Assembly (NCBI RefSeq): GCF_037996645.1
Contig: NZ_JBBMXV010000003.1
Location: 124,001-188,000, forward strand
Origin: Halalkalicoccus tibetensis
Lineage (GTDB): Archaea > Halobacteriota > Halobacteria > Halobacteriales > Halalkalicoccaceae
Reading direction: 5' to 3'
Length of the DNA stretch: 64,000 nucleotides
In this document: positions 12,129 through 14,496 of the stretch, piece after piece
How the letters are laid out: every line of letters begins with the position of its first letter
Numbering within the stretch: the stretch's first letter is position 1
Notes under the pieces: model-generated
What the model was told of the DNA's origin: nothing
The model's database searches: none
Seen by the model: the letters and a program-made list of their open reading frames with translations, nothing else
Position numbers and translations under genes: made by a program

Positions 12129-12223
12129 TCGGGTTCCTGTTTCAGTAGAAGCGAAATCGCTGCATCGATGTTACACACTCTCGATTAAATACCAGCAATG
12201 TTATAATATAGAAGAGTTCTGAA

Positions 12224-13375
12224 TTAACTTGTTCTTCCAAATCGAAATCCAGAGTCACTGAGGAACTCCGAAGAAAGGCCAACAGAACGCGGTCTTTCAC
12301 GAGCATCTGTTGGCGAACATTCTGCAACATCACCCAATGAACCCCTCCCAACTGCATGCAAAGAAACAAGAAACGCATCGTTGTTGATAATCGTATACGT
12401 TGGACCACCGGAATCTCCGGCAGCGGTTTGACCGACCTCGACTTCTACCCCTTCTCCATTGAATGTGACACAGTCTAAATTCGCGCTCTCGTTGTATGCT
12501 GTACAGTAGCCACTCTGGAACTGGGTAGTAGCTCCTCGTTTATATACGGGATCGAAGTCATCGATCAGTTTAGCATAATTCGTGTATGATCCTACGAGAT
12601 TTATCGAATTGTTTTCACTTCTCTGTACATGGCCTGAAAAGTCAAGATCGTTATTCTCGATCTCGATCGCGGCCCAGTCGTACGATTCGTGGTAATTTAG
12701 CACACTCCCTATCTCTCGTGATGGAGCCCAGCTACTGCTCTGTGATAATCGGTTTCCAATCGGAGAAGAATCACAGCCAGTCTTTCCCTGGCCGGCGGCT
12801 ACGTGAGCTGCTGTAAGCATAGTGAGCGTGTCTGTCGATTCCCAGTAGGCTCTTGCACACAACGTTCCACCACCACCGCCCTCTACGGCCGTTATCCAAC
12901 CACCACGCACTGGGTCGTTGGTCCCTCTCAGTGTGCATTGAAGCTCATCAGGTGGTGCTTCTATTGTTTCAATGTTGACACCATCAACGGATTCGGGAAC
13001 GATACTGTCAACATAAGATAGATCGACAATGTCACTGTCATACATAGCGCGTATCTGCAATTCGGTATGACCCTCAATTTCCTCGTTGGATCCTGTGATA
13101 CTAACGCTAGTAATTTCTGGCAAGTCGAGATATTGCTTAGAAACCTCCCGATGTATTTCTTCAGTTCGTTTAACCTCTTCCCACCATTCTTTGGAAACTG
13201 TTTCGTATAGGATCACTTCTTCACCATCAAAAGCCGAAGCGACTTCGATCGTATTGTTATCTCCTGCTGCAATACCTATTCCAGGCAGTACGCTCATACT
13301 TCCTAAGGCTTTCAGGATATTTCACCGAGAACCTCTGATAGACCCTGTGTCAGGATTGTTGTCTTCTTTTCCCAT
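12224..13375 (-). pseudogene. secreted trypsin-like serine protease, Tat signal interrupted by a stop codon
   Basis: From the ATG at 13375 the frame reads 17 codons (ending GSR), then TGA at 13324-13322, then NILKALGSMSVLPGIGIAAG in the same frame and an intact protease. Changing TGA to CGA would give SRRNILKALGS, a standard haloarchaeal Tat signal; the stop sits on the second arginine. Counting from the internal ATG at 13297 (357 residues), about residues 35-115 form a prodomain and the rest a chymotrypsin fold with H165 (TAAHVA), D207 (YDWAAIE) and S296 (GDSGGP); at least five cysteines. The gene is clearly AT-richer than its neighbours, suggesting transfer. Either a recent pseudogene, a sequencing error, or a shorter non-exported product from 13297. 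Confidence 0.82.
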
Positions 13376-13396
13376 ACCAATATATAAGATAGTATT

Positions 13397-13406
13397 GTAT
13401 TTAAAT
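13397..13406 (-). promoter_or_regulatory. TATA box of the protease gene
   Basis: On the minus strand the sequence reads ATTTAAATAC, centred about 27 bases upstream of the ATG at 13375. The spacing supports leaderless transcription from 13375 and therefore the upstream start, which makes the in-frame stop at 13322 significant. Confidence 0.5.
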
Positions 13407-13468
13407 TTTATTTCTATATATTATTATTTAATCGAAAAACATATATTCTACAGGTGGAAAAAGGGTAC

Positions 13469-13942
13469 ATGGATCGGAGAAGCTGGCTCGGCGTCTTGGG
13501 AACTGGAGCCCTCATTTCGCTGAGTGGATGCGTGACTGGGATGCTCTCGGATGAGGAAAACAGTCCAGATCCTCCGGATGGGATCGCAGACGTACGGTTC
13601 GAGCGGAAGGACCCACAGGGCTGGGAACTGATCGATCCCCAGAAAGAAGTACACACCGGCTTCAAGATTATTGATGACAAAGATGCCGACCATCCGACGT
13701 TTATCGTTCGAGGACAGGTGGAGTCAGGGGATCCAGACTGTACAGAGATCCATATAGATGGGATAGAATACATCGATACCACAGTATCAATCGAAATCGA
13801 AGTACGAGAAGAAGGAGAGGAGTGTCTGGACGTTATAGCATTCGAGCCGTTCGAAATGGAGATCGTGTTCGAAACCGAAGACGACGTGCCGGAGTCCATC
13901 GAGATCAACGATTTCGAGAAAGGCGTCCCGGAGCCGGAGTAG
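13469..13942 (+). CDS. Tat-dependent lipoprotein of unknown function
   Basis: A 157-residue secreted protein. The N-terminus MDRRSWLGVLGTG followed by the lipobox LSGC is a typical haloarchaeal Tat lipoprotein signal, so the mature chain would be lipid-anchored on the outside. The ATG at 13469 is chosen over the GTG at 13454 because it places the twin arginine at positions 3-4. The mature part is acidic, beta-rich and has two cysteines (PDCTEI, EECLDV) that could form a disulfide. I recognise no family. It is divergent from the protease gene across an AT-rich 93-base spacer and is followed six bases later by the prodomain-like gene. Confidence 0.8.
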   Translation: MDRRSWLGVLGTGALISLSGCVTGMLSDEENSPDPPDGIADVRFERKDPQGWELIDPQKEVHTGFKIIDDKDADHPTFIVRGQVESGDPDCTEIHIDGIEYIDTTVSIEIEVREEGEECLDVIAFEPFEMEIVFETEDDVPESIEINDFEKGVPEPE

Positions 13943-13947
13943 CCCCC

Positions 13948-14475
13948 ATGAACAGACGAACCCTCCTCGTAACGCTCGGAGCCATCGGAATCACCACGTC
14001 GGGTATCGCGGCGGGCCAATCGGACGAAAACGATGAGAACTGCGAGCCGGTCGAGGTCGTCGTCGGGGAGGACGCCAACGGCGAGATCACCGAGGAGGTT
14101 CCCGCCGCGTGGCAGGAACACGTCGAGCGGACGGAGGAGGTTCACGAGGAGATAGAAACGGAACACGGCAACGAGTCGTGGTTCGAGTCGGCGAGTATCA
14201 GAGAAGGAGAGGGGGAGGTCTGTGATCGGAATCGGATGGCCGTCTCGGTGAACGTTTCGGACAGAGACGAGGCAGAGGAACGGATCGAGGAGCGAGAGGA
14301 CGTACAGATCCTCATCGATGACGGCGACCGGGAGGATCGATTGGAGACGGTCGAAGACGAAGGCGAGGGAGAATCCGAGACAGAGGAGATGGCTGGCTTT
14401 GGAGTCCTCGCCACGCTCGGCGGCCTCGGTGGCGCTGTCTATCTACTTATGCGGCGGTTCGGCAATAGCGAATAG
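13948..14475 (+). CDS. Tat-exported, CTERM-anchored protein resembling the protease prodomain
   Basis: A 175-residue protein with a Tat-like signal (MNRRTLLVTLGAIG), an acidic middle, and a C-terminal tail EMAGFGVLATLGG + hydrophobic helix + RRFGNSE. The tail resembles the PGF-CTERM signal handled by archaeosortase A, but has AGF instead of PGF. The middle contains W55-x3-V-x-RTEEVH-x-E, matching W38-x3-V-x-RTEEIH-x-E in the prodomain of the neighbouring protease (counted from its internal ATG). Further matching is weaker by eye. Inference: a stand-alone, surface-held prodomain-like protein that may fold or inhibit a protease. It forms an operon with the lipoprotein gene. Confidence 0.75.
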   Translation: MNRRTLLVTLGAIGITTSGIAAGQSDENDENCEPVEVVVGEDANGEITEEVPAAWQEHVERTEEVHEEIETEHGNESWFESASIREGEGEVCDRNRMAVSVNVSDRDEAEERIEEREDVQILIDDGDREDRLETVEDEGEGESETEEMAGFGVLATLGGLGGAVYLLMRRFGNSE

Positions 14476-14496
14476 TGAACCGGCGAATGACGGTGA

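Follow-up and report, generated by a model that had tools for sequence, protein, structure and literature searches.

Organization of the locus

The window, a stretch of 64,000 nucleotides from Halalkalicoccus tibetensis, carries at one site a serine protease gene on the minus strand (product P0001, the window protease) and, divergently oriented, the genes for a lipoprotein and for a putative exported and anchored protein (P0003, the CTERM protein). Their features are collected in Table 1; G and L numbers are used below as genome and locus labels. The lipoprotein gene lies between the two others, as the first-pass annotation had described. Its description of one AT-rich island was only partly right: the GC content is 47% in the protease gene, 52.5% in the lipoprotein gene and 61% in the CTERM gene, against 64-70% in the flanking genes. 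The protease gene is compositionally foreign. Since the three values differ, the genes do not appear to have been imported together, and the differences point to separate histories. The lipoprotein and CTERM genes, with a gap of 5 bases, are probably co-transcribed. This pair recurs in a contig (C79) of the congener G004 with 81% and 77% identity, which brings its occurrence to two genomes in total.

The malate dehydrogenase-ferredoxin gap (window 12129-14496) is an accessory-gene hotspot whose contents vary among congeners, with a cupin-like gene in L140 and with GNAT and MazF-like genes beside the CTERM gene in L011. G004 contig C146 (L011 1-2160) appears to be a chimera or to carry contamination: on its left, the encoded proteins look bacterial right to the boundary of the haloarchaeal lipoprotein.

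Table 1. Features of the locus (window positions; the last row gives positions within the named loci).
Feature	Position	Strand	Basis or remark
Streptogrisin/alpha-lytic-type serine protease ORF (P0001), internal ATG, 357 aa	12224..13297	-	triad H165/D207/S296
Tat signal remnant, in frame from ATG 13375, MGKEDNNPDTGSIRGSR*NILKALGS	13298..13375	-	relatives begin with a Tat-type RR leader
TGA codon at the position of the relatives' second Tat arginine	13322..13324	-	aligned relatives
Protease prodomain, residues 16-114, predicted bbabbab	12956..13252	-	profiles and AF2 model
Protease catalytic domain, about residues 121-357	12227..12937	-	family alignment and profile
Prodomain shared motif, residues 38-51, WWEEVKRTEEIHRE	13145..13186	-	
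Divergent intergenic region, AT-rich	13376..13468	.	
Lipoprotein, 157 aa	13469..13942	+	
CTERM protein (P0003), 175 aa: Tat-type leader, prodomain-like domain, acidic linker, C-terminal membrane segment	13948..14475	+	
Prodomain-like domain of the CTERM protein, residues 32-126, clade-specific cysteines C32 and C92	14041..14325	+	
Shared motif of the CTERM protein, residues 55-68, WQEHVERTEEVHEE	14110..14151	+	
C-terminal membrane segment, PGF-CTERM-like (GFGVLATLGGLGGAVYLLMRRF region)	14392..14460	+	TIGR04126 22.8 bits; PF18204 E 0.095
Signal-less solo proteins with the domain	L115 4521-4847; L119 4314-4622; L116 4728-5132; L038 1588-1938		

The window protease and its interrupted Tat signal

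The residues H165, D207 and S296 are invariant in the alignment of the protease family (A2), and this catalytic triad is kept in P0001. The profile of the catalytic part of the family matched S1E enzymes, streptogrisin B (E = 3e-9) among them; with its triad inside a streptogrisin-like domain, P0001 belongs to S1E. The ORF start at 13297 falls downstream of the Tat motif, and the same frame continues up to an ATG at 13375. A TTTAAA sequence at 13405-13400, 30 bases ahead of this ATG (a match to the consensus only), fits an upstream start of the protease. The upstream frame reads ...SIRGSR*NILKALGS..., the codon of the second arginine of the twin-arginine signal being a TGA, for which a sequencing error is possible. 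As the frame is open past the TGA and the triad is intact, the change would be either recent or such an error. Taken as it reads, the replacement of the second Tat arginine means that this strain probably does not export the window protease. A Tat mutant of the halolysin SptA, as quoted in PMC6085418, retains the enzyme inside, where it becomes active and leads to cell death. By analogy with this mutant, the window protease without its Tat signal is unlikely to be of use to the cell.

Leader and predicted anchor of the CTERM protein

The CTERM protein begins with the twin-arginine leader MNRRTLLVTLG, whose RR is invariant across six homologues, and its export is predicted. The claim that both proteins are Tat-type exported thus stands for the CTERM protein and fails for the protease, which has a TGA in place of the second arginine. 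The PGF-CTERM-like C-terminus stays below the cut-off of 24.5 bits of TIGR04126 (NCBIfam), and it was also compared with Pfam PF18204 (Table 1). It has AGF at the place of the PGF which is present in the G122 and G179 homologues. Export and anchoring of the CTERM protein are predicted from these sequence features.

Homology of the CTERM domain and the protease prodomain

The motif said to be shared by the two proteins was found in both, at W38-E51 of P0001 and W55-E68 of P0003. A pairwise BLAST comparison of P0001 with P0003 was insignificant, and direct searches with P0003 returned acyl-CoA synthetases (E = 1e-5 to 1e-4), false matches produced by the composition of P0003, and a SHOCT-like protein; both were rejected as spurious. 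For these two reasons profiles were used. Relatives of P0001 were collected from 295 genomes of the order, and a protease-only HMM was built from 22 protease prodomains, P0001 being left out (E-values at Z = 1e5). This HMM matched P0003 with an E-value of 8e-8, whereas none of 2,000 shuffled sequences scored; all five CTERM proteins tested were matched, at 8e-8 to 7e-21 (8e-10 to 7e-21 for the others). The CTERM-only profile matched the leader and prodomain of the window protease at 9e-13. The profile-profile comparison suggested by the first-pass annotation was also significant, hhalign giving 99.2% over 100 columns between the CTERM and prodomain profiles, and 96.3% with only the two same-genus anchored sequences. 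By these matches P0003 is a member of the haloarchaeal protease prodomain family (A1), and the prodomain-homology half of that annotation survives. Judged from the profiles, the shared motif is true homology and not chance, and P0003 is the product of a separate gene homologous to a protease propeptide, without catalytic domain.

Predicted fold

AF2 modelling of the CTERM domain from three sequences gave a pLDDT of 92.3 and the element order bbabbab. The same order was obtained for the prodomain part of the P0001 model (pLDDT about 40-80), an agreement which is not fully independent, the alignment used for P0003 including two protease prodomains. No difference in predicted fold was therefore seen between the CTERM domain and the prodomain model, which share their order of strands and helices. 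The model of the whole protease, made from two sequences, had a mean pLDDT of 35; its catalytic part was unusable and its Foldseek matches were set aside. When the CTERM model was compared with the PDB by Foldseek, four chains of the alpha-lytic pro region (3pro, 4pro) were among the top 24 matches. Their query-normalised TM-scores (0.45-0.50) and their probabilities (0.69-0.93) were the highest of the 50 matches shown, with E-values of 0.14-0.34, which are not significant. The resemblance fits the streptogrisin/alpha-lytic kinship of the catalytic domain. By sequence, the domain matched no Pfam family, Pro_Al_protease (PF02983) included, and no PDB entry. This domain of about 115 columns, absent from Pfam and at present annotated as hypothetical, stands N-terminal to most of these proteases and elsewhere alone. 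From homology in sequence and similarity of the predicted folds it can soundly be inferred that the CTERM protein is a free-standing, prodomain-like protein of the cell surface, and on this point the earlier proposal is supported.

Distribution of the domain

The domain was present in 83 of the 394 genomes of the order, and in a phylum sample of 295 genomes every match fell within the same order. Most architectures are Tat proteases of about 350-430 aa; the others are a Tat-plus-anchor form and a short signal-less form of 102-145 aa. Signal-less domain-only proteins of about 102-134 aa form a clade of their own (95/93). A profile built from six anchored proteins and run on the 394 genomes detected full-length anchored proteins in six of them (G000, G004 with two, G059, G122, G179 and G369). 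According to tree and alignment, these proteins group in a single clade (100/99), to which a cysteine pair is private, and this clade is an old and small family. P0001 was not seen as its sister in the tree, whose deep forks are poorly resolved; within that resolution, an origin of the CTERM gene by duplication of the neighbouring prodomain was rejected.

Even where the genome is otherwise good, many family proteases are broken up by a frameshift, a stop or a deletion (L020, L023, L043, L044, L078, L113 and L123), and broken copies are exemplified by G011, G017, G179, G187, G202 and G388. Plasmids of Halorussus, Salinigranum and Halobacterium also carry members. A scan of genome contigs with an alignment of three proteases found only Haladaptatus sp. 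DYF46, and nothing was found by viral-contig scans and a phage search.

Relation of the CTERM protein to the adjacent protease

The first-pass annotation had proposed a possible module, in which the anchored protein would be devoted to the adjacent protease, for immunity or for tethering, both forming a working unit. The genes do adjoin in the window, their domains are homologous, and stand-alone propeptide inhibitors encoded beside proteases are known elsewhere, as with Plasmodium SUB1-ProM (PMC6993865). A family protease is also present in three of the six anchored-protein genomes, broken copies included, versus 73 of 388 (counts hand-tallied from the 394-genome domain search), but the Fisher p-value of this co-occurrence is 0.09. 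The survey for the same gene pair revealed the protease beside the anchored protein in the window only, that is in 1/6 genomes. The two-gene neighbourhood is not conserved: in five congeners the site, flanked by malate dehydrogenase and ferredoxin-helicase, is empty of all three genes. In G004 the protease lies on a different contig from the anchored protein, and in G179 (L113 6900-8400) the anchored protein is intact and its own protease is without most of its prodomain. The placement of P0001 outside a sister position to the CTERM clade, the nonsense codon in the protease Tat signal and the unequal GC of the genes likewise argue against a dedicated protease/inhibitor pair, which we regard as improbable. 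From the sequence comparisons the adjacent protease looks like a chance neighbour.

Proposed function and alternatives

The explanation that we favour, with a probability of about one half, is that the CTERM protein is a stand-alone, anchored mimic of a prodomain which binds streptogrisin-like proteases at the surface and is not the dedicated partner of its neighbour. Its family, small and old, would consist of copies of the pro domain of streptogrisin-like Tat proteases that are exported and anchored in the membrane on their own. Placed outside the membrane on the acidic stalk, the CTERM domain would bind the catalytic domain of streptogrisin/alpha-lytic-type proteases as the prodomain does, and would mainly inhibit or dock secreted or foreign proteases at the surface of the producer. 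The neighbouring protease would have come by a separate acquisition, and its export has probably ceased in this strain. The match of its catalytic domain to streptogrisin B is in agreement with such a mimic; the insignificant Foldseek E-values for the alpha-lytic pro region and the lack of a sequence match to Pro_Al_protease are not. Neither is G122, a genome with an anchored member, in which no recognisable protease of the family was found. Signal-less solo members, moreover, exist where no secreted protease would be met, so that the domain may have another ligand.

This last observation leads to a second explanation, in which the domain is a general binding module (for a ligand, or as a surface or S-layer component) common to proteases and to anchored or cytosolic proteins, the CTERM protein being unrelated to proteolysis. 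Such a role is possible, though less likely. In its favour, the solo members have neither signal nor protease neighbour, the gene that recurs beside the CTERM gene encodes a lipoprotein, and the anchored clade has its private cysteine pair and anchor. Against it, the domain in most members precedes a protease in the same chain, at the place of the pro region in the alpha-lytic family, and the predicted fold resembles that pro region. It is very improbable that the CTERM protein is a decayed, functionless protease whose catalytic domain was lost and whose anchor was a chance gain. Many family proteases are indeed broken, and one of the CTERM copies in G004 is interrupted by a TAA, but the conservation of leader, cysteines, linker and anchor in a clade that spans at least three families implies selection.

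The frequent breakage of the family proteases and their presence on plasmids would fit an enzyme that is mobile and dispensable and serves as a weapon or for scavenging. A separately inherited shield against such mobile proteases would, as a conjecture, make sense. A haloarchaeal class of surface-tethered, stand-alone prodomains might shield the producer from streptogrisin-like proteases, its own or those of neighbours, or serve to dock them, an idea which we put forward with reserve. If it is true, the alpha-lytic/streptogrisin family would, as far as known, have its first stand-alone propeptide inhibitors in these proteins, which in archaea would also be the first to be anchored, and the pro domain of a secreted protease would have been reused by haloarchaea as a separate surface shield or dock. 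We know of no description of such a protease-immunity strategy in archaea, nor, for the streptogrisin-like protease type, of a stand-alone, surface-tethered prodomain.

Comparison with known systems

The halolysins SptA, Nep and HlyR4 are, like the family proteases, Tat-exported haloarchaeal serine proteases with an N-terminal propeptide, but they are subtilisin-like (S8) and their catalytic domain differs from that of the window protease. No report of a stand-alone propeptide protein was found in the literature on halolysins. HlyR4 and HFX_0892 likewise associate a haloarchaeal protease with a second secreted protein; the latter, however, is a substrate releasing an antimicrobial peptide and is not described as a prodomain relative (PMC12893001). 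This halolysin/precursor antagonism was rejected as a model, the protease family and the role being different.

The alpha-lytic/streptogrisin pro region (S1E, PF02983; 3pro, 4pro) has in common with the domain of the CTERM protein and the family proteases a mixed alpha/beta structure, predicted for the latter, and a position N-terminal to a streptogrisin-like domain. The alpha-lytic pro region also inhibits its protease. It makes folding about 1e9 times faster, and the active site is crossed by its C-terminus (PMC2829044). The CTERM domain differs in being without detectable sequence match to this pro region and in occurring also as a stand-alone, membrane-anchored protein.

As small, separate propeptide-like products, the inhibitors of MEROPS families I9 (POIA1, yeast PBI2, Plasmodium SUB1-ProM, Toxoplasma MIC5) and I29 (crammer, CTLA-2alpha) are similar to the CTERM protein. 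To our knowledge, none of these stand-alone propeptide inhibitors is membrane-anchored. Stand-alone propeptide inhibitors have been described for subtilisins (PMC6993865) and for cathepsins (PMC4089206), and the SUB1-ProM gene adjoins subtilases (PMC6993865). The I9 and I29 inhibitors target subtilisins or cathepsins, whereas the CTERM protein is archaeal and anchored and has a streptogrisin-like protease as its putative target.
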